From the IMG/VR virus record IMGVR_UViG_3300029448_000260, positions 1 to 30,147 of that record: a stretch of 30,147 bases of DNA; one strand, 5' to 3'. This DNA is from a virus. The translations under genes and the position numbers were made by a program. The notes below the pieces were generated by a model, which was not told the DNA's origin, ran no database searches, and saw only the letters and a program-made list of their open reading frames with translations. How positions within the stretch are numbered: position 1 is the first letter of the stretch; every line of letters begins with the position of its first letter. Below, one piece after another: positions 2,306 to 24,235 of this stretch.

Positions 2306-2419
2306 TCAATTGTCGCAACTTCCATAATTTAATGAGGGTCTTCTTTCGTCTTCGTTCTTTTTGTTTTCTAATTTTAAGCCAGTGTAAATTGAGTAAGTAA
2401 AGTTTTTCTTGTTTGTCAT
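2306..2419 (-). CDS. Possible small protein after the cyclase, 37 aa
   Basis: A short frame whose ATG (2419-2417) overlaps the TGA stop of the cyclase fragment in an ATGA junction, the coupling style used throughout this genome. It encodes 37 residues starting MTNKKNFTYSIYTGLKLENK and ending in GSCDN. The composition is ordinary and soluble, unlike the Lys/Arg/Leu-rich alternative frame on the same bases. No ribosome site beyond coupling was seen and no family is recognised. It could be chance. Confidence 0.35.
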   Translation of the reverse strand: MTNKKNFTYSIYTGLKLENKKNEDERRPSLNYGSCDN

Positions 2420-7123: not shown

Positions 7124-7172
7124 ATAAAATAATACCGAAGAATAAAATTATGTTTAATGTTCCTGCGTCCAT
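7053..7172 (-). CDS. Possible small membrane protein between curlin and FecR genes, 39 aa
   Basis: This frame begins at ATG 7172, one base after the TAA of the curlin-repeat gene, and encodes 39 residues: MDAGTLNIILFFGIILYANI, then a polar tail ending in TNKRK. One hydrophobic helix with a basic C-terminus is a plausible small membrane protein. It fills the otherwise unexplained 50-base gap before the FecR gene but overlaps that gene's signal-peptide codons by 71 bases in another frame. No strong ribosome site was seen. It may be real or chance. Confidence 0.3.
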   Translation of the reverse strand: MDAGTLNIILFFGIILYANIKVYNWAHTLNPYDFTNKRK

Positions 7173-7173
7173 A

Positions 7174-7857
7174 TTAGTCTGTTTGTGATATATCAATATC
7201 TGCGTTATCACCACTTGTTGTTAAAGTAATCATATTGTCATTTGTACCTGATTGTACAATATCGACATCTGCGATACCACCTGTGTGAGTGTGTATCAAA
7301 GTATGTCCGTTTACATCACCATTTCCGTCTATGTCAATTAAGTAATTGTTAGTATCACCATTTACTGTGATTGTTAATATCGCACTATTACCATCAACTG
7401 TAGCGGCAACAACGTTTGAATCAGAACCTGATTGACCAACTATATCAACATCTGCTGAAGTAGCTGATGATGTTTGACCTATATCTAAATCAATATCGTT
7501 TGAGTTACCAGTAAAGTTAATTACTGCGTTTGCTGATCCACATGATGAGTTACCACCTGTACTATCACAATTTAAATCAACGTCATTTGAGTTACCAACT
7601 AAATTAATAACACCAGTATATGTAGCACCGTTAATCTGATATTTGATAACGTTAGAGTTACCTATCTGATCTATGTTTAAAATAGTCGTAGCACCTGTTG
7701 AAGCAGACGCTGTTGTGCTATTACCAACGGTGTTATTTTCACCATCTTGTGTTATATCTAAATCAAGTGAAGCACCTGATTGAGTAACGTAAATATCGTT
7801 AGCATATGACAAAGAAGTCATCAACATTAACATAACGACACTAATTAGTTTGTACAT
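7174..7857 (-). CDS. Curlin-repeat secreted protein, CsgA/CsgB-like
   Basis: A 227-residue protein with a clear signal peptide (MYKLISVVMLMLMTSLSYA, cleavage after SYA). The rest is built of about eight strand-turn repeats of 23-30 residues: YVTQSGASLDLDITQDGENN, ILNIDQIGNSNVIKYQING, VINLVGNSNDVDLN, AVINFTGNSNDIDLDIGQ, and a final VDIVQSGTNDNMITLTTSGD. Regular Gln, Asn and Gly at turns matches curlin repeats, which fold into a beta-helical amyloid. An odd feature is Asp enrichment in place of much of the Ser/Gln, and one Cys pair (NCDSTGGNSSCG). Its start overlaps the end of csgG by 17 bases. It is the best candidate for the major subunit exported through CsgG. Confidence 0.85.
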   Translation of the reverse strand: MYKLISVVMLMLMTSLSYANDIYVTQSGASLDLDITQDGENNTVGNSTTASASTGATTILNIDQIGNSNVIKYQINGATYTGVINLVGNSNDVDLNCDSTGGNSSCGSANAVINFTGNSNDIDLDIGQTSSATSADVDIVGQSGSDSNVVAATVDGNSAILTITVNGDTNNYLIDIDGNGDVNGHTLIHTHTGGIADVDIVQSGTNDNMITLTTSGDNADIDISQTD

Positions 7858-8674
7858 TGTTGTGTATTCCTATTTCTTCTTTTTTAAATTTCCAGTATTG
7901 TTTTTGTTCACCTGCGTGAATAATCTCTAATATAGCAAATTCTATTGCTGTTCTAATAGCATAAGTTACAGGTTCATTTGTTGCGACACCACTTTCTAAT
8001 TCTACTGCCTTTGTGTTCATATCTACAAAGGTAAATATATCGCCACCTTTTGAGTGACTTGCGATAGTTTTAGTGACCTGTGTTGTCAATAAAATCTCAC
8101 CTGTTTGTACTGATACAAGTCTCATAGCAACAGTGACTTGATCTACTCTATATGATTCACTTAATCCTATACCAAGGTATCTAGCACCTTGACCACCTGT
8201 TTGTATATTACTATCAAATCCTACTATACCACCTTCGATAATAAGACCAGCGAACAATAAAGGTTTTAAAATATTACCTACTTGTTGTTCGCCATCGTAT
8301 AATTCTCTTGTTGATCTAATCAATTGTCTTTCTTTGACTAGATTATCTAAACCTTCTCTTTCAACAACTTGAAACCAATCGCCACCTGATACTTTTTTCA
8401 ATGCGTCTATAACAAATAAACTAGCACCTTGTGTTACAGCAGTTGACAATTGAGAAAATTTTGTACTTGGTTTTCTCTGACCTGTCTGGTCAGTAAATCT
8501 ATAAACTGCTACTGTTATAATAGGTTGATTATCTAAATCAGGTAAGTTAAAAAGTCTATCACTTGTAGTTGTTCCTTCTACATATGGTGATTTACCTTTA
8601 TATACTTTGTACTCTTTATTTGTGGCACAACCTGATAAAATCAGACCTAATAATATAACTAAAATTGTTTTCAT
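7841..8674 (-). CDS. csgG: CsgG-like outer-membrane curli secretion lipoprotein
   Basis: A 277-residue homologue of CsgG, the nonameric outer-membrane pore of type VIII (curli) secretion. It has a lipoprotein signal with lipobox LSGC (Cys16). The family's core follows: VAVYRFTDQTGQRKPS, STAVTQGASLFVIDALKK, WFQVVEREGLDNLVKERQLI, GFDSNIQTGGQGARYLGIGL, VDQVTVAMRLVSVQTGEILL and NEPVTYAIRTAIEFAILEII. These blocks occur in the same order as in E. coli CsgG (about 277 residues), so the gene looks full length. It starts 2 bases after csgF and overlaps the curlin gene. A phage could use it to secrete the adjoining curlin-like proteins or to open the outer membrane. CsgE, the usual periplasmic gate, is not seen in this window. 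Confidence 0.93.
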   Translation of the reverse strand: MKTILVILLGLILSGCATNKEYKVYKGKSPYVEGTTTSDRLFNLPDLDNQPIITVAVYRFTDQTGQRKPSTKFSQLSTAVTQGASLFVIDALKKVSGGDWFQVVEREGLDNLVKERQLIRSTRELYDGEQQVGNILKPLLFAGLIIEGGIVGFDSNIQTGGQGARYLGIGLSESYRVDQVTVAMRLVSVQTGEILLTTQVTKTIASHSKGGDIFTFVDMNTKAVELESGVATNEPVTYAIRTAIEFAILEIIHAGEQKQYWKFKKEEIGIHNNVQTN

Positions 8675-8676
8675 AT

Positions 8677-9159
8677 TTAAAACTTAAAGTCGCCTAATGG
8701 CACGGACATTGTAGTCGTTGTACCATCAACGTCTGTTATTGTTAATGTAATTATTTCTGTGCTCGTATCTTTTACCCAATAGATTTGAGCACCTTCAACT
8801 TCAGCAGTACCACTTGTAGGACAAGTAGTTGTACTACTATCACATGAAGTACCAAACATATTGTCAACCAATTGTTTAGATAGGTTGGCATAAATTCTAC
8901 TTTCAACGTTAGTTATAAACTTGTTGATAGTCTTATTTTTCTCTGCTCTTTCAGAGGCAGCTTTTGCTGACTTAATGTCATCAAATACTTTCTGTTCTCT
9001 TTGTACTTCTAATTGATTTATAGATAGCACGTGCTGAGAATACCCATTGCCGCTAAACGCTGGGTTTTTAAAATCGTGTACTAATTCCGATGCCAGTAAA
9101 TTGTATTCAAGGATAAATGTAAGGATCACTACTAACACCATGTTAAATGATGTTTTCAT
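8677..9159 (-). CDS. csgF: CsgF-like curli assembly factor
   Basis: A 160-residue exported protein with a signal peptide (FNMVLVVILTFILEYNLLA). The mature N-terminus SELVHDFKNPAFSGNGYSQH matches the CsgF segment that inserts in the CsgG channel (FRNPNFGG in E. coli). A charged helical part follows (QLEVQREQKVFDDIKSAKAA), then a C-terminal strand region (IYWVKDTSTEIITLTITDVD, TTMSVPLGDFKF) like the CsgF end. Two Cys occur in a Thr/Ser loop (SCDSSTTTC). CsgF couples secretion to nucleation at the cell surface. It is the first gene after a TATAAATA late-promoter motif and directly precedes csgG. There is no ribosome site in front of the ATG. Confidence 0.9.
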   Translation of the reverse strand: MKTSFNMVLVVILTFILEYNLLASELVHDFKNPAFSGNGYSQHVLSINQLEVQREQKVFDDIKSAKAASERAEKNKTINKFITNVESRIYANLSKQLVDNMFGTSCDSSTTTCPTSGTAEVEGAQIYWVKDTSTEIITLTITDVDGTTTTMSVPLGDFKF

Positions 9160-12308: not shown

Positions 12309-12965
12309 TTAATCCTTACTTTTTTTATTTGTATCAATATAACTTTGATATATCTTATGAGCTTGACCTAAGTCTTTTTTCTTTTGTGGGTCTTTTGCTC
12401 TTTGTGACGCTACTTTTGCTCTCTGTGACATAGCTATAGCAGCCTGTATCTTGTGAGCATGAGTTCTACCTGAGTTTTTAATTTTACTTACAGACTTTCT
12501 AGCAGTTTCGCCATCTGTAAAACCTAAACCGTGTATAGTACCTTTAGGGTCTTCGTCTGTATATAAATCACTATGTTTATCAGAACCTTGTTTTTGTCCT
12601 GGCTTTCTAGGTATTCTTTTTGCGTCTTCTCCAGCAAACAAAGGTGATTTAATTGTTGACATTGTTTTCTTAAATGCCTTATCTTTCAATGCTTTAATTT
12701 TTTTATCTAATGCTTTTAATTGTGCTTTAAGTCTTGCTGTATTAGCAGTAAGAAAAGGTTTAATTGTACCTTTGCCATGAGTAGTTGCGTTAGCAGTTAA
12801 AGGTAAACCTCTACTGCCTGAAGTTAATCCTACACCTCTACTATCTTTTCCGCCTTGACCTTTAGGTGGCACATCACCTAAACTTGCGATAGGAGTTACG
12901 TTATCACTAGGGTTGCCTAGTCTAACACCACCTATGTAGTTCATATATTCTTTAAAGGTTTTCAT
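12309..12965 (-). CDS. Basic low-complexity protein with MKTFKEY start, possible internal head or virion protein
   Basis: 218 residues, rich in Lys, Gly and Thr. The N-terminus MKTFKEYMNYIGG resembles the MKTYQEF start of the T4 internal-protein capsid-targeting peptide, although no clear (I/L)xE cleavage site follows. The middle is Gly-rich and disordered (SLGDVPPKGQGGKDSRGVGL), then a Lys-rich helix (RLKAQLKALDKKIKALKDKA), then repeated helical SQRAKVASQRAKDPQKKK. Such composition fits a DNA-binding packaged protein. It is joined to the next gene by TAATG. It has no recognised catalytic motif. Confidence 0.7.
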   Translation of the reverse strand: MKTFKEYMNYIGGVRLGNPSDNVTPIASLGDVPPKGQGGKDSRGVGLTSGSRGLPLTANATTHGKGTIKPFLTANTARLKAQLKALDKKIKALKDKAFKKTMSTIKSPLFAGEDAKRIPRKPGQKQGSDKHSDLYTDEDPKGTIHGLGFTDGETARKSVSKIKNSGRTHAHKIQAAIAMSQRAKVASQRAKDPQKKKDLGQAHKIYQSYIDTNKKSKD

Positions 12966-13312
12966 TAATTATCTACTTTATGACCTGCTCTCCACTGATA
13001 ACATGACCAGTATCTTGCTTTTGTTTTAGGACCTGGATTATCACAATTATGTCTTGCTCTAAAATTTCTTCGTCTAGCAGGATCGTCTCTTTTAATTGAT
13101 AGACCTGTTGTATCGCCAAATGATACTTTCTTTACTTTGTCGCCATCTTTTACATATACATAAAACTTTTTAGAACCACCTCTAATTGGGTCATTTAATT
13201 TTACTTTTTTACCTTGATACTCTGCCTCTTGTATACCTTCTTGTTCGTGTTCAAATATAACTTCATCACAAAGTTTATCTATTTCTTCAAACTCTTTAAA
13301 TGACTTAGGCAT
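12965..13312 (-). CDS. Conserved marine T4-like protein with RHNCDNPGPKTKARYWSC motif
   Basis: 115 residues with a strong AAGGAG site before ATG 13312. The N-terminus MPKSFKEFEEID is followed by a GIQE-A site (Glu29/Ala30) that fits the (I/L)xE rule for T4 prohead protease. Then comes a compact domain, YQGKKVKLNDPIRGGSKKFY, VKKVSFGDTTGLSIKRDD and ARRRNFRARHNCDNPGPKTK, ending ARYWSCYQW. I recognise this basic, Cys- and Trp-containing block as common in T4-like marine phages, often as a module attached to other proteins; its function is not known to me. A virion or head-interior role is inferred. Confidence 0.8.
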   Translation of the reverse strand: MPKSFKEFEEIDKLCDEVIFEHEQEGIQEAEYQGKKVKLNDPIRGGSKKFYVYVKDGDKVKKVSFGDTTGLSIKRDDPARRRNFRARHNCDNPGPKTKARYWSCYQWRAGHKVDN

Positions 13313-13655
13313 TATATTTCTCCTTGAAAGTTTTATATTCAGGTTCTACTTTAATTTCAGTTTTACCATATATATCTTCGTCTATTTTCATTTCAACTTT
13401 TTCTATACCTGAATTAATCTGTTTTAAAAGCATACTATTATTATCTTCGTTGGCTTTGACCATCTTACTAATTTTTTTAGTAATATCATCTTGTTCGTCA
13501 CCTTGTTTCTTTTTTCTTTTAACAATACTAGGCGCCATAGGATTAGCACCTGTAGGATTTAAATCTACACCGCCACCTGAAGCAGAATTAGCTGGTGCGT
13601 CTTCGTCCATCTTATTAATGATTTCATCCATCATTTCTTTATAATGTTTTGGCAT
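13305..13655 (-). CDS. Small acidic/disordered protein, probable virion-associated
   Basis: 116 residues with GGAGAAAGAAT upstream of ATG 13655. It starts MPKHYKEMMDEIINKMDED. A Ser/Gly-rich linker (NSASGGGVDLNPTGANPM) follows, then a basic patch (KRKKKQGDEQDD), a helix (NEDNNSMLLKQINSGIEKVE) and an acidic end. The NxxSGGGVDL linker type recurs in marine T4-like structural proteins as I recall them. It overlaps both neighbours by 8-17 bases. No enzyme motif is visible. Confidence 0.65.
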   Translation of the reverse strand: MPKHYKEMMDEIINKMDEDAPANSASGGGVDLNPTGANPMAPSIVKRKKKQGDEQDDITKKISKMVKANEDNNSMLLKQINSGIEKVEMKIDEDIYGKTEIKVEPEYKTFKEKYNA

Positions 13656-14124
13656 ATTCTTTCTCCGTAACTAGTTCACCATCTTTTTCATAAACATCAA
13701 TACCAAAACATGTACATACCACTTCATCATCAATTCTAAAATCAGGTGTATCACCTTCTTCTTTTAACATGTCAGTGTATTGATTAGTTTCTTTTAGATA
13801 GCTTATAACAGCAGATTCGATTGTATCTTTATGTTGACTATATGATTTATCTTCTTTAATTAATAACGCTAAAGCAGTAGCAAAAGAACCTAAACGACCA
13901 CCTAGACCTATTTTACCTAATATTCTTTTTAAGTTAAATATAAATCTATGTAGAAACGTATAGGACTGCCTTTGTTTTTCAGTTTTTAATTCTCTAAACT
14001 TAATCAGTGTTTTGCCTTTGTCATCAATAATACCTTCTCTATAAGCTTCTTGCCTATTAAAAGGTGTTACTAATAACTTAACAATACGATAAGTTATCAA
14101 TGAGTCAACTATTCTATTTGCCAT
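13639..14124 (-). CDS. Conserved hypothetical protein of T4-like marine phages
   Basis: 161 residues with AAAGGAACTGTA before ATG 14124. It is helical and basic in the first half (IVDSLITYRIVKLLVTPFNR, YTFLHRFIFNLKRILGKIGL), Gly-rich in the middle (GLGGRLGSFATALALLIKED), then acidic (KEEGDTPDFRIDDEVVCTCF) with a Cys-Thr-Cys pair. I recognise the general sequence type (ITYRIVKLLVTPFN, DAY/LHRF) from related phages but know no function. It is coupled with 14124-14486 by a shared base, so the two products may work together. Confidence 0.75.
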   Translation of the reverse strand: MANRIVDSLITYRIVKLLVTPFNRQEAYREGIIDDKGKTLIKFRELKTEKQRQSYTFLHRFIFNLKRILGKIGLGGRLGSFATALALLIKEDKSYSQHKDTIESAVISYLKETNQYTDMLKEEGDTPDFRIDDEVVCTCFGIDVYEKDGELVTEKEYAKTL

Positions 14125-14486
14125 TACAGTTCCTTTAACAGTTTTTCCACAGTGTAATCTACACTAACAAAATGTAATTCGTGTGGATAAAGATAACCTA
14201 AGTAATCTAATATCGTTCTTAGGATCGGCCAGTATTCTTTATCTACTTTATATAGTAGTAAAGTAACGGCTGCCTCTACACCAAAAACATTTTGTAATAC
14301 GATAATGTGATTTACGGCTAATCTAACCTTAATCTTTCTCGTTATCGCATATTTCTTAAATAACCTTTTAAGATATTTGAATCGTTTCAGATCATCATAA
14401 AATTCCTGCTCTCTTTGAAGAGTAGGATTATCATAAGAGTGTTGAGCGAACAATAGCCAATTATCTTTAGTTATTTTTTGAAACAT
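14124..14486 (-). CDS. Conserved hypothetical protein of T4-like marine phages
   Basis: 120 residues, mostly helical: MFQKITKDNWLLFAQHSYDN, FYDDLKRFKYLKRLFKKYAI, KIKVRLAVNHIIVLQNVFGV and AAVTLLLYKVDKEYWPILRT. Basic Arg/Lys patches in residues 30-55 could bind nucleic acid or the next gene's product. No membrane helix or catalytic motif is clear. It ends in a 1-base overlap with 13639-14124 and begins 3 bases after the 14490-14933 gene. Function unknown; related proteins are usual in this phage group. Confidence 0.75.
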   Translation of the reverse strand: MFQKITKDNWLLFAQHSYDNPTLQREQEFYDDLKRFKYLKRLFKKYAITRKIKVRLAVNHIIVLQNVFGVEAAVTLLLYKVDKEYWPILRTILDYLGYLYPHELHFVSVDYTVEKLLKEL

Positions 14487-14489
14487 CTA

Positions 14490-14933
14490 TTACACTAATT
14501 TAGCGTAAACTTTAGATGATCCGTTCTGTAAAAGTTCATGGTCTAATTTAATTTTTAAACCACCTTCTTTTTTGTGTGATATACCATCATCATTTACGTC
14601 TGATCCGTCAGTATCTTTTCCAAATCTACCTCCGAATTGCTTCACTTCAACTGTTTTAGAACCTTTGTCGCCGTCTAATGAACAATCAAAAGATAAACCT
14701 ATTCTACCTAGTTTTTCTTTCAATGTATCAACAGCATGCTGTGGTTTTAAATATTCCATATCAGCCACTGCGCCAACAAAAGCATTTACTCTTTTTAAGA
14801 CTGCTGGGTCATGTATATTATGAGCACCTATGTTACTGTCTTCGATAGAATTTTCCATTCCACCAACAGTACCAACTCCTTGTGCGTCACCTTTATAACC
14901 GCCTTCTTTTATATGTTGTTTAAAAGATTTCAT
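14490..14933 (-). CDS. Candidate packaged (internal head) protein with MKSFKQHIKE start
   Basis: 147 residues. The start chosen is ATG 14933, behind AGGAAGAGAA; a longer frame upstream lacks such a site and overlaps its neighbour. The N-terminus MKSFKQHIKE-GG closely resembles the T4 internal-protein targeting peptide MKTYQEFIAE-A, including an IxE cleavage site at Glu10. The rest has NSIEDSNIGAHNIHDPAVLK, KRVNAFVGAVADMEYLKPQH, a GRFGKDTDGSDVNDDG loop rich in acidic residues and KEGGLKIKLDHELL. No enzyme motif was seen. A head-interior or structural role is inferred from the N-terminus and neighbours. Confidence 0.75.
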   Translation of the reverse strand: MKSFKQHIKEGGYKGDAQGVGTVGGMENSIEDSNIGAHNIHDPAVLKRVNAFVGAVADMEYLKPQHAVDTLKEKLGRIGLSFDCSLDGDKGSKTVEVKQFGGRFGKDTDGSDVNDDGISHKKEGGLKIKLDHELLQNGSSKVYAKLV

Positions 14934-14943
14934 TTCTCTTCCT

Positions 14944-15150
14944 TTATTTGTACTTGTCTGATACTTTTTTAGTGCCATCAGCACGTGGTATCAAACCTTT
15001 TGCTTTTAAATGTGCTTTATCAGTAAAACCAGCCTTACCAGCTTTATGACGCTTCATTGCGTCTGCTGTGTTAGGTGCTTTTTCACCGATCAAGTCTTCC
15101 TCAAAATCACTGAGGTCTTTATCTTTACTATAAGTTTTAAATGTTTTCAT
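14944..15150 (-). CDS. Small basic protein with MKTFKTY start
   Basis: 68 residues. The N-terminus MKTFKTYSKDKDLSDFEEDL leads to an IGE-K site (Glu23) that fits T4 prohead-protease cleavage. The remaining 45 residues are basic: APNTADAMKRHKAGKAGFTD, then HLKAKGLIPRADGTKKV. This second part is a block I recognise as recurring in T4-like marine phages, sometimes fused to other genes. The basic character suits a DNA-associated internal head protein. It is spaced 2 bases from its upstream neighbour. Confidence 0.75.
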   Translation of the reverse strand: MKTFKTYSKDKDLSDFEEDLIGEKAPNTADAMKRHKAGKAGFTDKAHLKAKGLIPRADGTKKVSDKYK

Positions 15151-15152
15151 TT

Positions 15153-15380
15153 TTAACTCGTTGCTATGTTTAAAGCATTTTCTTTATCTTTTGTCATACT
15201 TGGTTTTTCGTTTAGTTTGACAATCATTTTTTCATTCTGTTGTATGGCACCATAAATCGCATTTAAAGTTCCGTTTAATTGCTTCAATGTTGCCTCAGTA
15301 TCACTAATGCTTTTCTTTGTTTTATCAAAGTCTGCTTGTAGTGTTTGTTTTTCATCTTGTAAATATTTTAATTCAATCAT
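15153..15380 (-). CDS. Small coiled-coil protein
   Basis: 75 residues from ATG 15380, which has TGAGG six bases upstream; the TTG at 15392 would use that same site as coding sequence and is unlikely. A single long amphipathic helix runs through LKYLQDEKQTLQADFDKTKK, ISDTEATLKQLNGTLNAIYG and QQNEKMIVKLNEKPS. It has no family match. It follows the virion-like gene 15399-15860 and may be a small structural or chaperone-like subunit. Confidence 0.7.
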   Translation of the reverse strand: MIELKYLQDEKQTLQADFDKTKKSISDTEATLKQLNGTLNAIYGAIQQNEKMIVKLNEKPSMTKDKENALNIATS

Positions 15381-15398
15381 TATGTACCTCAATCAATA

Positions 15399-15860
15399 TT
15401 ATGCTACAACGTAACCATTTCCTCCGATTACATTCCAATTACTATTTTTAAATAAACAAATTACACTTTCACCTGGTGCGTTCAAAGTAATAGTAGTATA
15501 ACCTCTTAAATTAGAAGGTGTAATTACTACGTTGTTTGTGCCAGATGTAGATGTGTTTAATATAATTTTAATTTGACCATCAGCACCATCAGCTAAAGCA
15601 CCAGCGTGTGTCGCTGAAGTTGCGTTTATTTCTGTGATTGCTGTAGTAACGTTAACTGCCGTGTTTGTTGAACCGTCAGCAGTAATAGATTGTGAAGTTT
15701 GTTTTAATCCTAACCAAGATGGTATATTATTAAATACATCTTCTGCTGTTACTTTTTTATTGATTGGTGTGCCACTTGGATCATCTACAACGTGAAACAA
15801 GTCGGCTGTTGCTAATGCGTCACCTAAATTAGTTAACGCTGTTATTTTTTTGTCTGCCAT
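15399..15860 (-). CDS. Probable virion structural protein (Thr/Ala/Asn-rich beta protein)
   Basis: 153 residues with a perfect AGGAG site and structured leader. It opens [20 protein letters not shown] and [20 protein letters not shown], a start typical of phage fibre and appendage proteins. The rest alternates strands rich in Thr, Asn and Ala: [60 protein letters not shown]. It ends in [13 protein letters not shown], a common last strand of head- or fibre-decorating domains. Exact role (fibre, decoration, neck) is unknown. Confidence 0.75.
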
Positions 15861-15876
15861 TTTTTTCTCCTGTTAA

Positions 15877-15910
15877 CCCTTTCGGGAATGCTACTCTAGG
15901 TAATGCCTAG
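15877..15910 (-). promoter_or_regulatory. Two small hairpins in the leader of 15399-15860
   Basis: In the minus-strand RNA, CTAGG/CCTAG with a 5-base loop (15910-15896) and CCC-GAAA-GGG, a GNRA-type loop (15886-15877), lie just upstream of the AGGAG site and ATG 15860. With the terminator-like hairpin at 15938-15953 they fill a gap of about 108 bases. They may protect the mRNA end or be processing sites. The structures are read by eye; no folding energy was computed. Confidence 0.4.
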
Positions 15911-15937
15911 ATCACTTTATTCATATAGTATATATAA

Positions 15938-15953
15938 GGGCGCCAAAGCGCCC
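15938..15953 (-). terminator. GC-rich hairpin, probable terminator after 15969-16247
   Basis: A perfect 6-bp stem GGGCGC/GCGCCC with a 4-base loop lies 16 bases after the stop of 15969-16247, in an otherwise AT-rich region. On the minus strand it is followed by TTATATATAC, a short U-rich run, so termination may be partial. It is symmetrical and could also act on the plus strand, but no genes are there. Confidence 0.6.
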
Positions 15954-15968
15954 CTATATTAATTGTTA

Positions 15969-16247
15969 TTATGTGTTACTTGTTAAACAAACTAATGTTT
16001 CACCTGTAACTCTGCTTGATCTTCCACCAGAACCAGTTGTTTTTAAAACCCAACCTTGGTGTGAACCAGCAATAATTTCTCCAGCGGCATAGTTAAATAA
16101 ACCTATTGTTGCGCCTGTTATAAAATTACTTGCGTCTGCGTCTTCAAATAAGTTTGTTCTATTCGCTGATGATGGTGCCAATTTAACACTAGCACAAGCC
16201 CATAATGGTGCTCCTGCTGCTGAATCGGCTGTTGTCCAACTTGACAT
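15969..16247 (-). CDS. Small virion-like protein, single-gene late transcription unit
   Basis: 92 residues, rich in Ala, Ser, Thr and Gly. It reads MSSWTTADSAAGAPLWACAS, then NRTNLFEDADASNFITGATI, GLFNYAAGEI and GWVLKTTGSGGRSSRVTGET, suggesting a compact beta domain like small head-decoration or tail-appendage proteins. A strong GGGGAGAG site precedes ATG 16247. It has its own late promoter (16305-16312) and is followed by a terminator-like hairpin, an arrangement for high expression, as expected for an abundant virion protein. No family name is claimed. Confidence 0.8.
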   Translation of the reverse strand: MSSWTTADSAAGAPLWACASVKLAPSSANRTNLFEDADASNFITGATIGLFNYAAGEIIAGSHQGWVLKTTGSGGRSSRVTGETLVCLTSNT

Positions 16248-16304
16248 AGTATTCTCTCCCCTTAATTATTGTTAATGGTACTCACTTTATTAATTTTGTA
16301 TTAC

Positions 16305-16312
16305 TATTTATA
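16305..16312 (-). promoter_or_regulatory. T4-type late promoter for 15969-16247
   Basis: TATAAATA on the minus strand in context ATTATAAATAGTA lies between the HAD-phosphatase gene stop and the 15969-16247 gene. The expected start site near 16299 gives a leader of about 52 bases that ends in GGGGAGAGAATACT before ATG. The same extended motif stands before csgF (9165-9172). Confidence 0.75.
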
Positions 16313-16319
16313 ATGGAGA

Positions 16320-16808
16320 CTACTTAAAACCGAGTTTTTTTAGTTGTGCGATTGTGTTTTGTGGTGTGGTATGTAGTATTCCTATGCCACCTCTAGCAGT
16401 AAATTGATCTGTATTTTTCTTATAATCGTCTATTAAAATAGCAGATTCGCCACCAAATTTAGCATAGTTTTGTTTTTGTACTCTTTTGACTAGATTTACT
16501 CTATTTTGACCTAAACTAATGTTTTTTTGACACCATCTTAACTTCCCTGGTTTACAGTTAGGATCGTGTACTTCTTCTACATGTGCTGATAAAATGTGAG
16601 GATTAAATCTTTTAATATAAGTCCATAATGTACGACCACCTTTTTGCCAAGGCAGTTCAGACCAAAATGTTCTATTGTTCTTTATAGGATCCCATTTTTC
16701 TGCTTTAGATTTATGCGACCACTGAGTTATAGGTACGCCTACAACTTGTTCAGCTTTCTTTTTGAAGTCGCATAGGACTCCATCCATGTCGCAATATATT
16801 CGTTTCAC
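16320..16808 (-). CDS. HAD-family 5'(3')-deoxyribonucleotidase-like phosphatase
   Basis: 162 residues. Motif I is IYCDMDGVLCDF with nucleophile Asp7 and Asp9; motif IV is ILIDDYKKN with paired Asp. HADs of this small class remove phosphate from deoxynucleoside monophosphates, which would help the phage balance nucleotide pools. The start is GTG at 16808 in a TAGTG overlap; the next ATG would remove Asp7, so GTG must be correct. Also visible are FWSELPWQKGGRTLWTYIKR and HILSAHVEE, where the Ser is motif II. It could also be a nonspecific phosphatase. Confidence 0.85.
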   Translation of the reverse strand: MKRIYCDMDGVLCDFKKKAEQVVGVPITQWSHKSKAEKWDPIKNNRTFWSELPWQKGGRTLWTYIKRFNPHILSAHVEEVHDPNCKPGKLRWCQKNISLGQNRVNLVKRVQKQNYAKFGGESAILIDDYKKNTDQFTARGGIGILHTTPQNTIAQLKKLGFK

Positions 16809-18277
16809 TAGTTTTTATAATCAACTTTTGGATCCGTGTCAACTACTGTCTTAGGTGAACCAGTTAACGCTTTGCCTTTTGATTTCTCTTTTTTTGTTTC
16901 TTTGTCATCAACAATATCTGGTTGTTTATCCTCTTTTTGTGTAGGGTCGTAACTATTTCTATATGTTGTTTGAGGTGCTGATAATCTATCAGTAGTTCTT
17001 TCAAGGTGTTCAATGTCAAAATCTTCAATATTACCGCCGCCACCTGGACCTATTTTTCTTCTATCTCTTGCCTTTTCTAATTCTTTTTCTACTTTAGCTT
17101 CAGCAGCTTTTTCAGACGGTGCGTCAATGACCATATGAAAATCATCCTCACTACTTATACCTCTGTATGATATTCTGCCTTCAACTTCCCACCTTGCTTC
17201 ATTCATCTTTTCTTCTTTTTTCATCTTATCTCTAAGAGCTTTGTAAGCAACACCTACTGTTAAAGGTATTTCACCTGTGTCAGGATTAGGTTCTGGTTTT
17301 ATAGCTTTGTTCTTTTCATTTTCAAGTTTTTGTTTTAACAACTCTACTTGACCTTGTAAAGTTATATTCTGTTTTTCTAAAGCGTCTGTATCTTTTTCTT
17401 TATCTAGTTTAATTTTTAACTTTTTAACTTGATCGCCGTCTTGTTCAGATTCAGTATCAGTAGAAGCATCTGTTTTAGCAGGTGGCGTTTTCATATATTG
17501 AGCATTCTTTTTAGTTTCTTCTAACTCATCACCAGCTTTTTGCCATATATTTTTTATTGTATCTTCAACTTTTAATTTAGGTTTAGGATCAACTACATCA
17601 TGTTCGCCTCTTTTAGGGTCTTTATAAGCAGCGTGTTTCTTTTTGTTCATGTCAGATACGTCTTCTTTTTTAGACTTTCTTAACATAGCAAAATCTTTTG
17701 CGTCTAAGTCACCGTCTTTATCTTTATCTAATTTCTTTTGACCACCTACTAGTTTTTCGTCCATTGCTTTTTCTAAATCTTTTGCTTGACCAGCATGTGC
17801 TTTAGTAGCTTTCTTTAATTGACCGATAACATCTTTTACAGTAGGGTTATCTTTAGAATCTAAGTCTTCTTTTTTCATTTTTTTAAGAATAACTTTTTGT
17901 AAAGCAGGTGGTAATTTTTTCTGACCAGCAGTTAAATCTTCACCTATTTCTGTATCATAATCATCTGCTTCTTTATCAGTTTGACCGCCGTCTGGCGCAC
18001 TACCTGGTCTTTTACCAGCGCCAGGTTTCATAACAGATTTTTTATGACCTGTCTTGTATGTGCCTCTTTTATCACCTACTTGTGGTCCAGAACCTGGTCC
18101 ACCTTCGTTCATAACTTTATTGAAAGCGTCACCTATTGAACCTTCTTTTGTACCAAAGTATGATGATGTTTTGTATTCTTTATTTTCTTTTTTTGGTTCT
18201 TCTTTGGGTGTATGTACTGATTTTACTACAGCAGACTCAATAGAACCCTCTTTTGTTTTTAAATATTTTTCACTCAT
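16808..18277 (-). CDS. Large disordered, charged protein with EF-hand-like loop; probable virion or scaffold protein
   Basis: 489 residues, extremely Lys/Asp/Glu-rich. The N-terminus has a tandem repeat, YLKTKEGSIESAV (5-17) and YFGTKEGSIGDAF (40-52), then VMNEGGPGSGPQ. A helical LPPALQKVILKKMKK follows at 123-137. Residues 184-195 (DKDKDGDLDAKD) are a canonical calcium-binding EF-hand loop with Asp at positions 1, 3, 5, 9 and 12. Later come a coil (KQNITLQGQVELLKQKLENE) and a small C-terminal domain (ARWEVEGRISYRGISSEDDF ... PSEKAAEAKVEKELEKAR) behind a KMNE-A site. I recognise the EF-hand-like LDKDxDG loop and GGPGSGPQ as recurring in marine T4-like phage proteins. Function is unknown; disorder and charge suit head-core or packaged proteins. 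Confidence 0.75.
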   Translation of the reverse strand: MSEKYLKTKEGSIESAVVKSVHTPKEEPKKENKEYKTSSYFGTKEGSIGDAFNKVMNEGGPGSGPQVGDKRGTYKTGHKKSVMKPGAGKRPGSAPDGGQTDKEADDYDTEIGEDLTAGQKKLPPALQKVILKKMKKEDLDSKDNPTVKDVIGQLKKATKAHAGQAKDLEKAMDEKLVGGQKKLDKDKDGDLDAKDFAMLRKSKKEDVSDMNKKKHAAYKDPKRGEHDVVDPKPKLKVEDTIKNIWQKAGDELEETKKNAQYMKTPPAKTDASTDTESEQDGDQVKKLKIKLDKEKDTDALEKQNITLQGQVELLKQKLENEKNKAIKPEPNPDTGEIPLTVGVAYKALRDKMKKEEKMNEARWEVEGRISYRGISSEDDFHMVIDAPSEKAAEAKVEKELEKARDRRKIGPGGGGNIEDFDIEHLERTTDRLSAPQTTYRNSYDPTQKEDKQPDIVDDKETKKEKSKGKALTGSPKTVVDTDPKVDYKN

Positions 18278-19521
18278 TATTTTTTACTCCCTCTAACTTT
18301 AGCGGCAAGGTCTTTGTCTGCCCCACCCCATGTACCTGAGGATTTAGTAACGAAAGAGTTAACTCTAGCAAGTGCCCATTGTTGTTGAGTAGCACCTGGT
18401 CTATGACCACCTTTCCAAGCAGCCATACCTCTATCATAAACTTTTTTTAATATTGAATAAGGCATACCTGTTTTGTTTGCCTTATTTTTGACTGCCGTAA
18501 TAGTTTCAAAAACTTTTCTGGCGCCAGCGTATCTATCTTCTTTCATAACGTCTCCGTCTTTTCCTATTAGTTTATAGCCCATTTGTGAATAAGTGCGCCA
18601 TTCAAAGTCGTTAATTTCTCTAACTTTGTCGCCCTTTTTGACCGTTAATTTTTTTTCTTCTAGTTGTTCTCTAACTGGCATACCTTTTTGTATCATACGA
18701 GATAATGCCAAGCCAGATAAGAAAGGTATTTTTTTCTTTCTTAAATCGTTTAAAAATGCGTCAGGTATTCTATCAAATATTTTTCTTAATTTATTTGCCT
18801 GATCTAATGATATTGTTTTGCCTTTTAAATCAGCATACTGTTTTGATAAAGTATCTAATTGTGATCTAGTAAACTCTTGTAAGTTTTCTTCTTTAACAGG
18901 TGGATTATATCTACCCATTTTATCAATAGTAAAACCTCTGCTTCTTAAATCTTGTGCCATCTTTTGTATTTCTGGTAAACTATCTGCGTCTTTAAACCCA
19001 GCATGTTGTCCGTGTTTACTATAAGAAATCATAAATGGTTTAATTTTTTCTTCTAAACTTTCGTTTGCTTTTTTCAAAGCGTCAGCAACTGAAGAGTTTT
19101 TAGATAAACCTTTTTGTAATTTTTCTATCTCATCTACAGCTTTTGTCATATTGCCAGCATATTTTTTAGCAATCTCTTTTGCTTTTGATACTAACGCAAA
19201 GCCTTCAGGTGTTTCTTTAATACCTTCTTTTTTCTTAACAATATTTGTTGCTGTAGCATATCTAACAGCATCGCCTTTTTCTTTACCATATCTATCTTTG
19301 AAATCTTTTTTAGGCAAGTCATCTGCCATCTTATGTACTTTTTTAATTTGACCTTTTGATAAGTCAGCTTCGCCCATAAGTTTTTTAGCGTCTGAGACTG
19401 ACATACCTAATTTTTTAGCTATGACTTCTATACTATCTTTTTCTTTACCTTTCATGTAAAGACTTCTAATCTTAACTTCTTGTAAAGATTGAGTAAGTGT
19501 TTTTCTATATCTACTATTCAT
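18277..19521 (-). CDS. Multi-domain charged protein with DUF5824-like C-terminus
   Basis: 414 residues from ATG 19521, which has an ideal AGGAGATAAC site; the longer frame from 19557 does not. The N-terminus MNSRYRKTLTQSLQEVKIRS contains an LQE-V site. Helical segments follow, including EVIAKKLGMSVSDAKKLMGE, like a small DNA-binding HTH, and KIFDRIPDAFLNDLRKKKIP. The last 80 residues, NKTGMPYSILKKVYDRGMAA, WKGGHRPGATQQQWALARVN and SFVTKSSGTWGGADKDLA, form a conserved domain I associate with DUF5824, frequent in phages and of unknown function. It ends overlapping the 16808-18277 gene by one base. Confidence 0.8.
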   Translation of the reverse strand: MNSRYRKTLTQSLQEVKIRSLYMKGKEKDSIEVIAKKLGMSVSDAKKLMGEADLSKGQIKKVHKMADDLPKKDFKDRYGKEKGDAVRYATATNIVKKKEGIKETPEGFALVSKAKEIAKKYAGNMTKAVDEIEKLQKGLSKNSSVADALKKANESLEEKIKPFMISYSKHGQHAGFKDADSLPEIQKMAQDLRSRGFTIDKMGRYNPPVKEENLQEFTRSQLDTLSKQYADLKGKTISLDQANKLRKIFDRIPDAFLNDLRKKKIPFLSGLALSRMIQKGMPVREQLEEKKLTVKKGDKVREINDFEWRTYSQMGYKLIGKDGDVMKEDRYAGARKVFETITAVKNKANKTGMPYSILKKVYDRGMAAWKGGHRPGATQQQWALARVNSFVTKSSGTWGGADKDLAAKVRGSKK

Positions 19522-19529
19522 GTTATCTC

Positions 19530-19904
19530 CTATAACGCTGAGTGTACTTCGTCCCAATTAGAGACTTTTCTTTTTAAATCTGACATTAGCATTTTTTCTA
19601 ATCTCTGTCTTATTTGAACAGCGTCATTACCTATAAATCTACCATAATTGTCATGTATAGTTTCAAGTGCTTTATAAGCCATTGCTAATTTACTATCTCT
19701 CAAAATTTGATCGGCTATGTATCGTCTTGCTTCAAAGTGATTATTACCAGCAGTTTTAGCTCTAATATATTGTAAATTAGTTTTACTTGCTACTGCTTCT
19801 TTTAAATTACTTTTAACTTCTTTAAACGTTTTCATATCGTCAAATTGTCCTTCATGTGGCGTATTTTCTAATATATCTTGTAAGAATTTATCAAGTCTAG
19901 GCAT
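19530..19904 (-). CDS. Small helical protein with internal MKTFKEV signature
   Basis: 124 residues from ATG 19904, with GGAG 10 bases upstream; it overlaps the preceding stop by 8 bases. It contains MKTFKEVKSNLKE-A at residues 24-37, the same targeting-like peptide seen at other starts in this region, with a good LxE-A site. Translation might therefore begin at Met24 (19835) instead, although that ATG has only a distant AAGGA. The remainder is helical: RAKTAGNNHFEARRYIADQI, LAMAYKALETIHDNYGRFIG and IRQRLEKMLMSDLKRK. No enzyme motif was seen. Confidence 0.7.
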   Translation of the reverse strand: MPRLDKFLQDILENTPHEGQFDDMKTFKEVKSNLKEAVASKTNLQYIRAKTAGNNHFEARRYIADQILRDSKLAMAYKALETIHDNYGRFIGNDAVQIRQRLEKMLMSDLKRKVSNWDEVHSAL

Positions 19905-22299
19905 TGTTGTCAATCTCCAATTTTTTCATCATCTTATCAACAACTTCGTCTAGTTTAGAACGCCATTGTTCTTTATATCTTGTCTTATATTTATCTAAAA
20001 CAGCATCTGAAACTGACCATTCTTGTATATCTTTTTTAGTTACAACAGGATCGTTGCCAAATACTCTTTTTAAGTTCTTTTTAGAATCACTAGGTTTGTA
20101 TGAGCTACCTCTAAATTTAGGGTCATAACCTGGCTCACCTGGTGTTATTTTGTTTGTATATTCAGCGTAATCGTGTCCTATGTCATATGCTTCAGGTATG
20201 TAACCCTCGACTTTTTTTGCGTCTTCTACTGACATTTCTTCTGGCACACAATTAGGCACAGTCTTTCCATTTTTCTTTTTCATTCCTACTTGTTTAAAAC
20301 CTTTCCAACAAGCTTCGTCCATACTCACTTCACCATACATTTGTTTAAACTTCTTAGTATGTTTACTAGGTTTTGTTTTAGCGTCTTTATCACCTGGCGC
20401 TGCCTTGTATGATGATGGTGAATCATCTGTTGTATCTTGTTTCTTAAAGAAAGCGTCTCGTTTACCTTTAGTATCTTTCTTTAAACCACTATAATATTTC
20501 TTAGGTTGAGAACCTTTTTTACTACCTATTGATTTATCTTGCGGTAGTCTTTTTGTATGTCCTGATTTTTCTTCTTTTTCTGATACAGCTTGGAAGCCGT
20601 AATCAACGTCTAAATTATATTCTCTCACTTCTACCTCTCTATCTGAAGCAACTGGCACACAATCCCATATCCAAGACTTGTGTAAATTATTTTCATTGTC
20701 TTCTACAACAATGTAATTAGTACCACGTCTTACAACTTTGCCTGTTATATCTTCTTTTATGTTGTTAATTTTGTCGCCTATATTAAAAATTTGTTCTCTT
20801 ACATATAGGTCTCTTATTTGATTTTGTTCAAATTCTTCTAAACTAGCTATAGGTTTATAATTATAACCTAAACTATAATTTAATGAAGCAGCCAGTTTCA
20901 TGCCTTGTCTAACTTGTTTCATTAAACCATCTGCGTCTCTGTATGATGTAGGTAATCCTTGTTTAAATTTTCTAATGTCTCCTTTTGAAGCAGCGTCTCT
21001 CATTTTACTAGCACTCATACCCATAGCACCTTCAGCGTCTGGATCTCTTTCGCCAGCAGATACTACATTTATGTTATCAAAATTATAATAACCATGTCTG
21101 CTTCTAACATCATTGTATTTGTTTAAGATTGTTTCAAACTCTCTAACTCTATCACTACCTACAACCATAAAGATTTCTGTAAAACCTTTTTTGTATAGAT
21201 TAGTAGCAATATCTAATATCATGTTAGTAGGATTTAACATTATCTTACTAGCATATTGAGGAAACATCTTTTTCATCACGTCTAGTTTTTGTCTAGGTGA
21301 TAAAGGATTCTTTTTAGGGTCTTCACTTCTACTTAAAAATATTCTGTAATCATTTGCTGATATACTTTTTACTTTTTTAATTAACTTCTCATGCCCTATT
21401 GTAGGTGGATTAAATCTACCGAATGTAAATGCGATTGTTTTTCTAGGTGCCTCATCCATAGAATCAATCTCATCATCTGTAACTTTACCATCTTCTAATA
21501 TTTCTTTTAATTTTTTATACATTTTTATATAATGATACTTTTCTAAGTATTTGTAAACAACATTTTTAGGCAACTTATGTTTTTTACCAAATGATTTTAT
21601 TTCATCTGGCGACATGTCATTAGCAAATGCGTCTTGTCTTTGTTTAAATACTTCATCGCCAATATCAACTAAAGTTTTGATACTGTCTTCTATCTCATAC
21701 AATTTTTTACCTATCAGTTCTTGTAAGTTTAATATATCATCATCTGATAGTTCAGTCAACTCTTTATAATCAACTAAATCTCTCTTTAATTCGCCTTGTA
21801 CAATGTCTAATTCTCTAACTCTTTTTTGAAACTCTGCCTCATACTTTTCAGGTTCAAAAGTTTGATCTTCAGGTCGTCTAATAAACTTATTTTCTTCTAC
21901 ATCAAATACACCATCTGCCATATCATCATTCTTTTTCTTTAGTTCAGGATCAGTGATGACATAATAATTAATAGGATGTTGTGTGCCTGGTACAAGTTTG
22001 CCGTTTATATCTTTTAAATTTTTAGCAATTGCTTTTCTCATAGGTTCTCTATCAGCAAGTGCCACATCAAATAGTACATTGATGTCTAAGTCTGCGTCTT
22101 CTCTATATCTTTTAGTTAAGATAGAACCTATTAGTGAAAATTTTTTAACAGGAGCATATTTTTCAAACTGTACTATTTGTTTTTTAATCATAGCAATAAT
22201 ACCAGCTTTTAATTTAGGATTTTCAGTATCAGCATTATCAAACACACCTTTAGCGTATGTTTTTCTAGGAATGTCTATGATACTTTCTGAAAAATACAT
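19897..22299 (-). CDS. Fusion of pol-beta-type nucleotidyltransferase and NMN-adenylyltransferase-like domain
   Basis: 800 residues from ATG 22299 (AGGAGTACGATA site, TAATG overlap with the kinase gene). Domain 1 (about 1-120): GSILTKRYREDADLDIN, with G58-S59 and D70-x-D72, the minimal pol-beta nucleotidyltransferase signature. Domain 2 (about 285-460): FTFGRFNPPTIGHEKL (HxGH-type signature at 294-303) and MSASKMR (428-434, like ISxTxxR), typical of NadM/NMNAT-like cytidylyltransferases that use ATP. A SMDE-A site stands just before this domain. The C-terminal 300 residues are Lys-rich, with DEACWKGFKQVGMKKKNGKT and VPNCVPEE, a block common in marine T4-like phages. The substrate is unknown: NAD synthesis, tRNA or nucleotide transfer are all possible. 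Confidence 0.85.
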   Translation of the reverse strand: MYFSESIIDIPRKTYAKGVFDNADTENPKLKAGIIAMIKKQIVQFEKYAPVKKFSLIGSILTKRYREDADLDINVLFDVALADREPMRKAIAKNLKDINGKLVPGTQHPINYYVITDPELKKKNDDMADGVFDVEENKFIRRPEDQTFEPEKYEAEFQKRVRELDIVQGELKRDLVDYKELTELSDDDILNLQELIGKKLYEIEDSIKTLVDIGDEVFKQRQDAFANDMSPDEIKSFGKKHKLPKNVVYKYLEKYHYIKMYKKLKEILEDGKVTDDEIDSMDEAPRKTIAFTFGRFNPPTIGHEKLIKKVKSISANDYRIFLSRSEDPKKNPLSPRQKLDVMKKMFPQYASKIMLNPTNMILDIATNLYKKGFTEIFMVVGSDRVREFETILNKYNDVRSRHGYYNFDNINVVSAGERDPDAEGAMGMSASKMRDAASKGDIRKFKQGLPTSYRDADGLMKQVRQGMKLAASLNYSLGYNYKPIASLEEFEQNQIRDLYVREQIFNIGDKINNIKEDITGKVVRRGTNYIVVEDNENNLHKSWIWDCVPVASDREVEVREYNLDVDYGFQAVSEKEEKSGHTKRLPQDKSIGSKKGSQPKKYYSGLKKDTKGKRDAFFKKQDTTDDSPSSYKAAPGDKDAKTKPSKHTKKFKQMYGEVSMDEACWKGFKQVGMKKKNGKTVPNCVPEEMSVEDAKKVEGYIPEAYDIGHDYAEYTNKITPGEPGYDPKFRGSSYKPSDSKKNLKRVFGNDPVVTKKDIQEWSVSDAVLDKYKTRYKEQWRSKLDEVVDKMMKKLEIDNNA

Positions 22300-23012
22300 T
22301 ATCGTACTCCTAATTTCTTCATTTGTAATTCTCTTGCTATCCAAGTCTTAGCAATTATATTATTTGGTTTTCTCATCAAGTTTGCTCTAACAAAGTTAGA
22401 GGCTTTTCTTAATGTATCAGTGACTAACTCTTGGTCACTTTTATTGTTATCTATGATTGCCATATTTGATCTACCAAATAGATACTGAAACTTACCTATA
22501 TTTTGTTGTACAGTGTTCCAACTATTCTTAACAACATACTCAGGTATTGATCTACTTCTAATTAAGTTTCTTTGTAGAGCAACATCTAAACTTGTGTTTA
22601 CAAATATCATATAACAATCGTATCCTAATACTTTACAAGCATTAACTTGTCTGTTTATTACATTATAATCTCTGCCTGTTGCGTCAACAACTAAACCTAA
22701 TCTACCTTTAACGTAAACATCTAATTGTGATGATGTTAAAGTTTTGGCTCTTTGTCGTACAATATTTCTAAAGTATTCTTCTTCATCTGGCATTTTTAAT
22801 GATAAGTTTGATTTCTTTAATCCTCTTTCAAAAGCATTATCAGAGTTAACAACTTTTAATCCTGTGCCAGCAAAAGCACTAGCAGTTACAAATGATTTAC
22901 CTGAACCAGGACCACCTGCTAAGAAAAATGCTTTGAATATACCTGGATCATAAACACCCTCAGTAAGCATTTTTTCAAAGTTTGTTTCTCTAATAAGTTG
23001 TCTTAACTTCAT
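22299..23012 (-). CDS. P-loop kinase (zeta-toxin/polynucleotide-kinase-like)
   Basis: 237 residues from ATG 23012 (AAAGGATA site, TAATG overlap). Walker A is AGGPGSGKS (about 32-40) after KAFFL; then VVNSDNAFERGLKKS, and LGLVVDATGRDYNVINRQVN as a Walker-B-like segment with an Asp. CYMIFVNTSLDVALQRNLIR looks like a lid with Arg residues. This is the plan of small-molecule or nucleic-acid kinases of the zeta-toxin/PNK group. MLTE-G at residues 15-19 could be a cleavage site. Neighbours are the ligase-like and nucleotidyltransferase genes. The substrate cannot be told. Confidence 0.85.
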   Translation of the reverse strand: MKLRQLIRETNFEKMLTEGVYDPGIFKAFFLAGGPGSGKSFVTASAFAGTGLKVVNSDNAFERGLKKSNLSLKMPDEEEYFRNIVRQRAKTLTSSQLDVYVKGRLGLVVDATGRDYNVINRQVNACKVLGYDCYMIFVNTSLDVALQRNLIRSRSIPEYVVKNSWNTVQQNIGKFQYLFGRSNMAIIDNNKSDQELVTDTLRKASNFVRANLMRKPNNIIAKTWIARELQMKKLGVR

Positions 23013-24235
23013 TATCCTTTTACCCAATCTTTTTCAGCAGTAAAGTTTGCTCTACTAAATTCTAATCTATCAACTAACTTAACAGCATTACCTTTATCAA
23101 CAGCAACAAACCCCTCTGGTGCCGTAACTTTATAACCGTTAGGTGTTCTTAAAAAATGTCCTATACTTTGTATTTGTGATAGTTTTGATACTAAAGAGTT
23201 CTTACATGTTTGTAAACTAACGTGAGAAGCTATTGCCATAACTAAAGCATTTTGATTTTTGTCTATAAAACTTAAACCATTTTTTAGTATTGTTCTATAT
23301 TTGTCTTTACCTGCTTCTGTTTTTCTAGCGTCTATCTCTTGTTGTACAAATGCTTCATAATAATTTCTAAACATTTCTTGTAGTGTTCTAACTTTTGCCA
23401 TACCACCTTTACTATTTCTAATATAGTAATTAAAAAATGTTTTTAATCTAAAACCTATTGAAAACTGATCTGAGGTAGACTTACTCATTTCATCTAAGAT
23501 AGGAGCAGCCTTAGAAAGTGAACCCTCTGCCTTTCTAATTAAAGCGTCAAAACTACTTAACTCTGATTTAGTAAACTTGGCACTACCTGATACATCTTTG
23601 TAAGCAGCGTCTGCTAAAAATACAGACGATATACCTGATTTACCTCTAACAGTACCGAAACCTGCCGTCATTGATGATAACGTTTTACCTGAGTATGATG
23701 TATGAAATACTATACCCATTTTTGCTCTAGTAATTCTTTTACCTATTGATGAGTTTACAGGCACAGCATATGTAATAGTATTAGGTGTAAAAGTAATCAT
23801 ACTATCACCGTCTATGTTTGCTGTTTTTAAATCTGATTTTGAAAATAGAAAATCGCCTTGTAATACACCAGAGATACCTAGTTTTGATAACTCTTTTAAT
23901 GCGATTGATAATTTATTTGCTAATTCACCTGAGTGATTTTTTCTTATATCTGCGTTAGTATAATTTACTTTAGGTGTTTTATTGAATACTGCTTTTGTGC
24001 CGACAAAGAATTTGCCGTTTTCTGGATCAATACCACATATTATAGCAGGTGCGCCGTCCCACTTCACTGTCATATTAACTTTTTTGCTAGATGACCCAGC
24101 AAGCATGTTTCTTATTGACTTTAAGAAGTTAACTGCGTTTCTACCACCTTTAGAACCTTTGTTTATTATATCGTCTTCTAAGTGTTCTAAATGTGTATTT
24201 CGTTCTTTTGTAATAAATCCTTTAAAACTAAACAT
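23012..24235 (-). CDS. DUF6267-like protein with ligase-type KxDG motif
   Basis: 407 residues from ATG 24235, preceded by GAGAGAGAA; the longer frame to 24334 starts inside unconserved sequence. The motif VKWDGAPAIICGID (Lys58-Trp-Asp-Gly61) has the KxDG pattern that carries AMP in DNA/RNA ligases and capping enzymes. FFVGTKAVFNK (77-86) and GVLQGDFLFS (123-132) lie where ligase motifs Ia and III would be expected, and AKMGIVFHT around 171-179 could stand for motif IV. I associate this family with DUF6267 of T4-like phages. Whether it truly is a nucleotidyltransferase is inference. The end is coupled to the kinase gene. Confidence 0.75.
   Translation of the reverse strand: MFSFKGFITKERNTHLEHLEDDIINKGSKGGRNAVNFLKSIRNMLAGSSSKKVNMTVKWDGAPAIICGIDPENGKFFVGTKAVFNKTPKVNYTNADIRKNHSGELANKLSIALKELSKLGISGVLQGDFLFSKSDLKTANIDGDSMITFTPNTITYAVPVNSSIGKRITRAKMGIVFHTSYSGKTLSSMTAGFGTVRGKSGISSVFLADAAYKDVSGSAKFTKSELSSFDALIRKAEGSLSKAAPILDEMSKSTSDQFSIGFRLKTFFNYYIRNSKGGMAKVRTLQEMFRNYYEAFVQQEIDARKTEAGKDKYRTILKNGLSFIDKNQNALVMAIASHVSLQTCKNSLVSKLSQIQSIGHFLRTPNGYKVTAPEGFVAVDKGNAVKLVDRLEFSRANFTAEKDWVKG

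Follow-up and report, generated by a model that had tools for sequence, protein, structure and literature searches.

DUF6267, a probable polynucleotide ligase family of T4-like marine phages, here encoded beside a kinase and a double nucleotidyltransferase

The repair of broken RNA ends is a task for which phages carry small sets of enzymes. In T4, tRNA repair is performed by the kinase Pnkp (pseT) and the RNA ligase Rnl1, and the set described in jumbo phages is composed of a ligase, a polynucleotide kinase (PNK) and RlaP, a nucleotidyltransferase (NTase) of the pol-beta type that restores nucleotides before ligation (PMC7824862). Here, we analyse the IMG/VR virus record IMGVR_UViG_3300029448_000260, a stretch of 30,147 bases (the window, taken at its full length) from a phage of the T4 type that lies near Kyanoviridae, in which three consecutive genes encode a protein of the family DUF6267, a P-loop kinase and a double NTase. 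DUF6267 is probably an unrecognised family of polynucleotide ligases built on the covalent nucleotidyltransferase fold, working here together with the kinase and the NTase, most likely on RNA. The genes are the following:

23012-24235, minus strand: DUF6267 protein of 407 aa, predicted ligase-fold covalent nucleotidyltransferase (PF19782, E 5e-124; AlphaFold2 model; VIA-align)
22299-23012, minus strand: P-loop kinase (PNK/PSTK/Zeta group), 237 aa when counted from the TAATG start (AAA_33, PHROG and PDB matches)
19897-22299, minus strand: double nucleotidyltransferase, 800 aa from the TAATG start, with a pol-beta NTase, a TxGH cytidylyltransferase-like domain and a tail with DUF5824 and a Cys motif

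All three frames are open and the gene junctions read GATAATGAAG and GATAATGTAT, so that the stop and start codons share a TAATG both at 23012 and at 22299 and the translation of the three genes is likely to be coupled. The sequence-only reading of this DNA had described the same three genes, with their overlaps, a KWDG lysine at residue 58 (counted from a start at 24235) and a GGPGSGKS kinase, and all of this was found as described; the third product is indeed a pol-beta-type NTase joined to an adenylyltransferase-like domain, but the motif of the second domain is T-I-G-H and not the HxGH that had been read there. The linkage which that reading had proposed to check is kept in relatives, where the ligase-like, kinase and NTase genes remain together, and the set is seen again in dozens of independent contigs, which argues that it is not due to chance. 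The window further carries uvsX together with genes for a gp41-like helicase and a primase-like protein, the names being taken from visual inspection and from annotated relatives that resemble them.

The KWDG protein belongs to Pfam DUF6267 (PF19782), a family annotated as of unknown function, on which a literature search found no papers. In an alignment of 52 divergent homologues, down to 30% identity, 38 positions are invariant, including K58, D60, G61, Q126, D128, E374, G375, V377, K386 and R390, and their order is that of motifs I, III, IV and V of covalent nucleotidyltransferases, with a single lysine in motif V:

24053-24064, minus strand: motif I, KWDG (K58, W, D60, G61), with the predicted adenylylated lysine; K58, D60 and G61 invariant in 52 of 52
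23849-23860, minus strand: motif III-like QGDF (Q126 and D128 invariant; family form Q-G/A-D)
23105-23116, minus strand: motif IV-like EGFV (E374, G375 and V377 invariant; family form E-G-x-V)
23066-23080, minus strand: motif V-like KLVDR (K386 and R390 invariant; family form K-x-x-x-R)

The ATP-dependent RNA ligases, namely those of Naegleria gruberi (NgrRnl), T4 Rnl1, T4 Rnl2 and fungal Trl1, resemble DUF6267 in the predicted nucleotidyltransferase core and have motifs I (KxDG), III and IV in the same order; in NgrRnl, the segment of DUF6267 that precedes motif I aligns from residue 143. Unlike these enzymes, DUF6267 bears a helical insert between its third and fourth motifs (approximately residues 215-352), K-L-V-D-R in place of the KxK of motif V and an N-terminal HLEHLED motif, and between the two groups sequence-profile similarity is not detectable.

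The fold was examined on two AlphaFold2 models, that of the window protein (407 aa; predicted local distance difference test, pLDDT, 85.7; predicted template modelling score 0.80) and that of a Syn9-type homologue (320 aa, about 30% identical; pLDDT 87.3), picked as a distant member of the family with a much smaller helical insert. With VIA-align, the best 20 rows for the window model are all ligases, headed by the N. gruberi RNA ligase (Z 8.0, 182 residues aligned, 4.0 Å) and including TbREL1 (Z 7.2), Trl1 (6.9) and T4 Rnl2 (6.5), and for the Syn9-type model ligases occupy 50 rows out of 50, again with the N. gruberi enzyme first (Z 8.6, 176 aligned, 4.0 Å) and with T4 Rnl1 at 7.5 and T4 Rnl2 at 6.5. 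With Foldseek, the first 22 matches of the Syn9-type model are ligases or capping enzymes, and the top of the list for the window model holds only noise. The input alignments of the two models share some members, and the models are therefore not fully independent. Nevertheless, a uniform list of ligases from two divergent models, together with the invariant motifs, makes a ligase-type nucleotidyltransferase fold a strong assignment for the predicted structures. The ligase-like call made from motifs seen by eye is thus upheld at the level of the fold: a nucleotidyltransferase core was looked for in both models, which favour it, and motif I, the motif III- and IV-like stretches and a V-like lysine stand in the right order. 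We conclude that DUF6267 is a new, widely distributed family within a known superfamily, the covalent nucleotidyltransferases.

Several observations weigh against a ligase. The Foldseek E-values are not significant (the best for ligases is 0.13), and Z scores of 8-8.6 are at the upper edge of the range that VIA-align calls common. Motif V is without the second lysine of KxK, a C-terminal ligase accessory domain was not recognised, and only one of the 52 members shows a weak match to RNA_lig_T4_1 (0.0093). The hhalign comparison with a T4 Rnl2 alignment gave an E of 0.27, outside the core, so that the likeness to T4 Pnkp and Rnl1 suggested earlier stands for the toolkit and not for a close sequence kinship. 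Finally, in a Vibrio phage, EniLVp02, gp30 and an RNA ligase coexist with a divergent DUF6267. Searches of the PDB with phmmer and with profiles, and a search of NCBIfam, reached no ligase from DUF6267; PF09414 (RNA_ligase) is absent from the Pfam families reported for the 52 members, and a scan of viral contigs with the Vibrio homologue as query found no relatives.

By counts of record names, DUF6267 occurs in 371, 61 and 24 records named Synechococcus, Cyanophage and Prochlorococcus, respectively, versus 374, 61 and 24 with UvsX, or in about 99% of the records of T4-like cyanophages. In a review of 2010, the gp30 DNA ligase of cyanomyoviruses was considered lacking or too distant to be seen (PMC2984593). 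Each of the ten Kyanoviridae records searched has exactly one DUF6267 gene and, in all ten, there is no match to PF01068, PF01653 or PF09414; no DNA or RNA ligase could be recognised in any of them. Among another 11 records, which are metagenomic and in many cases incomplete, PF01068 had no match and PF09414 had one. DUF6267 may be the ligase that T4-like viruses of marine cyanobacteria were thought to lack. A replacement of gp30 everywhere is ruled out by EniLVp02, which has both, and replacement is thus not the whole story.

The gene order found in many viral contigs is uvsX, gp41 helicase, an optional nuclease, DUF6267, an optional kinase and cytidylyltransferase. Cyanophages mostly carry DUF6267 and the cytidylyltransferase only, phages of the HTVC008M group have the nuclease and the kinase in addition, and in the group to which the window belongs the kinase is accompanied by the additional pol-beta domain and the nuclease is missing. 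Part of this linkage reflects shared descent, since the phages carrying the operon are related. The gene preceding DUF6267 often resembles a nuclease, and does so in several lineages. No more than four columns, E, D, S and K, are invariant in one large cluster of these upstream genes, where they form a D...SxK arrangement typical of PD-(D/E)xK enzymes, and several other clusters tie weakly to this cluster by profile comparison. The analysis thus shows the computed fold, the invariant catalytic positions, this conserved linkage and the fact that no other ligase is recognisable in the Kyanoviridae checked; the ligase activity, its substrate and cofactor and the delivery of some of the enzymes in virions are inferred.

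As for the partners, the kinase has a PNK-like P-loop kinase domain (AAA_33, 4.5e-12, and Zeta_toxin, 1.3e-7, in Pfam; the PHROG polynucleotide kinase phrog_505, 1.3e-6) and its match in the PDB is L-seryl-tRNA(Sec) kinase (5e-5), which, judged by sequence, places it in the PNK/PSTK/Zeta group. It shares with T4 Pnkp the P-loop kinase domain and, by eye, a lid-like stretch RN..R...P, but differs from it in the fused phosphatase: a Pfam scan of the 237-aa protein found no HAD domain, and a HAD nucleotidase is encoded by a separate gene further down. The fusion protein matches CTP_transf_like (2.7e-6) and NTP_transf_2 (4e-4) in Pfam, and its N-terminal domain is matched by the general NTP_transf_2 and Polbeta models in 19 out of 19 homologues; only these general models and the MTPAP-like palm model were returned by the Pfam scan of the pol-beta NTase homologues. 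As in the RlaP-type repair of jumbo phages, a pol-beta NTase stands beside a ligase and a kinase, although here it is fused to a TxGH cytidylyltransferase and is recognised in Pfam by general NTase models only. The relevant elements are:

22893-22916, minus strand: Walker A motif GGPGSGKS of the kinase, read in the sequence
22084-22128, minus strand: pol-beta NTase signature GS...DxD (G73, S74, D85 and D87, TTG numbering), invariant in the 19-homologue alignment
20665-21450, minus strand: cytidylyltransferase/NMNAT-like domain with FGRFNPPTIGH (PF01467, 2.7e-6; PHROGs cytidyltransferase, 5e-70)
16320-16808, minus strand: HAD-type 5'(3')-deoxyribonucleotidase-like protein, encoded in the same run of genes (phrog_2643, 1e-28; PF06941, 1.4e-4)

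The HAD-type gene also comes after the operon in HTVC008M, and its product is a possible phosphatase partner. Relatives of these enzymes show further domain arrangements. One relative of the double NTase (L069:4198-7278) bears an extra N-terminal PAP2 phosphatase domain (PF01569, 2.5e-9); in Agrobacterium phage Atu_ph07 (L088:5293-7629) the kinase homologue is fused to an additional domain at its N-terminus, ADP-ribosyltransferase-like in appearance, and the leader is MKWNDLNE; and in L024, L030, L031, L056 and L072 the kinase slot is taken by another P-loop protein, about 405 aa long and beginning with MNIILIGGPGSGKS.

In the mechanism that we propose, Lys58 would take AMP from ATP or NAD+ and hand it to a 5'-phosphate, after which the nick or break would be sealed; the PNK-like kinase would supply the 5'-phosphates and the pol-beta NTase would rebuild the 3' ends. 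The target would most likely be RNA (tRNA) cut by host defences, with DNA nicks near the replication fork as a possible substrate. RNA end repair is favoured for the operon, with a DNA role possible, because the nearest folds are RNA ligases and because kinase, ligase and pol-beta NTase form a described RNA-repair set; the end-repair tool set recognised in the sequence-only reading does correspond to the phage kits of PMC7824862.

The alternative that survives best, which we regard as plausible but less probable, is that DUF6267 supplies the replicative DNA ligase that Kyanoviridae seem to lack, acting on Okazaki fragments and recombination nicks, to which the kinase and the NTase were added later. 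A role in DNA work fits the place of the gene in the replication gene run, just after the gp41 helicase and between uvsX and gp61, as well as the near-universality of the family in cyanomyoviruses, the ten Kyanoviridae genomes in which no gp30 or LigA was found, a gap already noted in PMC2984593, and the nuclease-like gene often found upstream. On the other hand, the closest folds are RNA and not DNA ligases, neither an OB-fold nor another DNA-binding domain was seen in DUF6267, the kinase and the pol-beta NTase suit RNA repair better, and the host ligase could serve instead, as suggested in PMC2984593.

A further aspect of the operon is found at the N-termini of its proteins. In T4, the first ten residues of the internal protein IPIII direct it to the head, mainly through positions 4 and 7, with processing at 8 and 10 (PMC9026906). 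IPI-IPIII and Alt have short variable leaders with bulky residues near 4 and 7, [IL] at 8 and E at 10, placed at a domain border; the leaders described here are alike in sequence but, differently from T4, they stand on repair-type enzymes:

22959-23012, minus strand: kinase leader MKLRQLIRETNFEKMLTE, directly before G-V-Y-D-P-G-I-F-K
24203-24235, minus strand: possible DUF6267 leader MFSFKGFITKE before the conserved NTHLEHLED domain start

The N-termini of the kinase homologues are hypervariable, and 37 distinct leaders out of 37 end in [ILVF]xE just before GVYDPGIFK. Leaders of the NTase homologues, such as MRFKDYVLE and MKFKDYIKE, precede SIIDIPR, with a border ending in [IL]xE in 20 of 22. 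Those of DUF6267 are looser, ending in E or D, and the extension is present in homologues from non-cyanobacterial phages and absent from those of cyanophages. Many kinase and NTase leaders fit the IPIII pattern, as do MKKFSAFLNE (S-SM1) and MRFRQFIIE (S-SZBM1), the leaders of two cytidylyltransferases detected in virions (PMC3037559 and PMC9146016, respectively); related cytidylyltransferases have been found by others in the virions of S-SCSM1 and S-CREM2 as well, and the authors of the virion studies caution that such enzymes may be carry-over. UvsX also starts with a similar leader-like string. In the whole S-SZBM1 proteome, the strict leader pattern occurs in 15 of 218 proteins, with 7.4 expected, and only two of the 15, one of them the cytidylyltransferase, were detected in the virion, which makes this genome-wide test weak; the conserved leader border in orthologues is stronger evidence than such a count. 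Against packaging, the proteins detected in virions of S-SZBM1 do not include DUF6267. Given this result, the weak enrichment and the caution about carry-over, packaging is something that we infer, and the wider proposal, in which the marine T4-like phages have a ligase family that has escaped recognition and, where the hosts are heterotrophic bacteria, nuclease, ligase, kinase and NTase with capsid-targeting leaders form a head-packed and injected end-repair kit, is offered tentatively. If the leaders work, the repair enzymes would reach the cell together with the phage DNA, ahead of all phage gene expression.

Several small proteins encoded at 12309-19913 of the window start with leaders such as MKSFKQHIKE, MKTFKEY and MPKSFKEF, similar to capsid-targeting sequences, which suggests a block of packaged proteins. 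A CWKGFKQVGMKKKNGKTVPNCVPE-like motif recurs in the tails of otherwise unlike proteins (window 19897-22344; L299:8304-9677), including the virion-detected SSZBM1_139.

An unlikely alternative is that the operon is an NAD+ module, in which an NMNAT-like TxGH enzyme and a kinase of the ribosylnicotinamide type regenerate NAD+ for an NAD+-dependent DUF6267 ligase. As in NadR, an adenylyltransferase-like enzyme and a P-loop kinase are side by side; DUF6267 usually adjoins a cytidylyltransferase/NMNAT-like gene, the enzyme is called NMNAT in cyanophage papers (PMC9602691), and a single PHROG profile, phrog_455, spans both DUF6267 and the cytidylyltransferase. The fused protein that this profile implies is, however, absent among 296 homologues; the adenylyltransferase-like and kinase parts lie here on separate proteins, the motif is TxGH and not HxGH, the families that the kinase matches are PSTK, Zeta and PNK and not NadR, the Ia NMN-binding domain was not recognised and the closest folds are ATP-dependent RNA ligases. 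Least probable is that DUF6267 uses its nucleotidyltransferase fold to cap RNA or to AMPylate proteins for host takeover: capping enzymes share the fold and occur among the Foldseek matches, and the leaders of the neighbouring enzymes resemble T4 capsid-targeting sequences such as that of the injected ADP-ribosyltransferase Alt, but ligases rank above capping enzymes for both models, the gene company is a nuclease, a PNK-like kinase and a pol-beta NTase, and the DUF6267 proteins of cyanophages are without a leader.

Among marine viruses, T4-like cyanophages and pelagiphages are some of the most abundant. For a near-universal family of so far unknown function, the reading of DUF6267 as a polynucleotide ligase provides a concrete enzymatic prediction in which the active-site lysine is named. 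If active, the enzyme would fill the ligase gap of cyanomyoviruses, provide molecular biology with a further, divergent family of ligases and point to the repair of RNA or DNA ends as a core need of these phages.

Other genes of the window were seen in passing. A short protein whose cysteine motif reads RARHNCD...YWSCYQWR (12965-13312) is very similar to its HTVC008M counterpart (L086:10438-10839). Genes at 4584-9159 look curli-like by eye, with curlin-type repeats at 7174-7857 and within 4584-6008, a FecR-like protein at 6008-7123, a CsgG-like lipoprotein at 7841-8674 and a CsgF-like protein at 8677-9159. At 2416-4273, two adjoining frames together resemble a CHASE2-adenylate cyclase that a stop codon or a frameshift may have divided.

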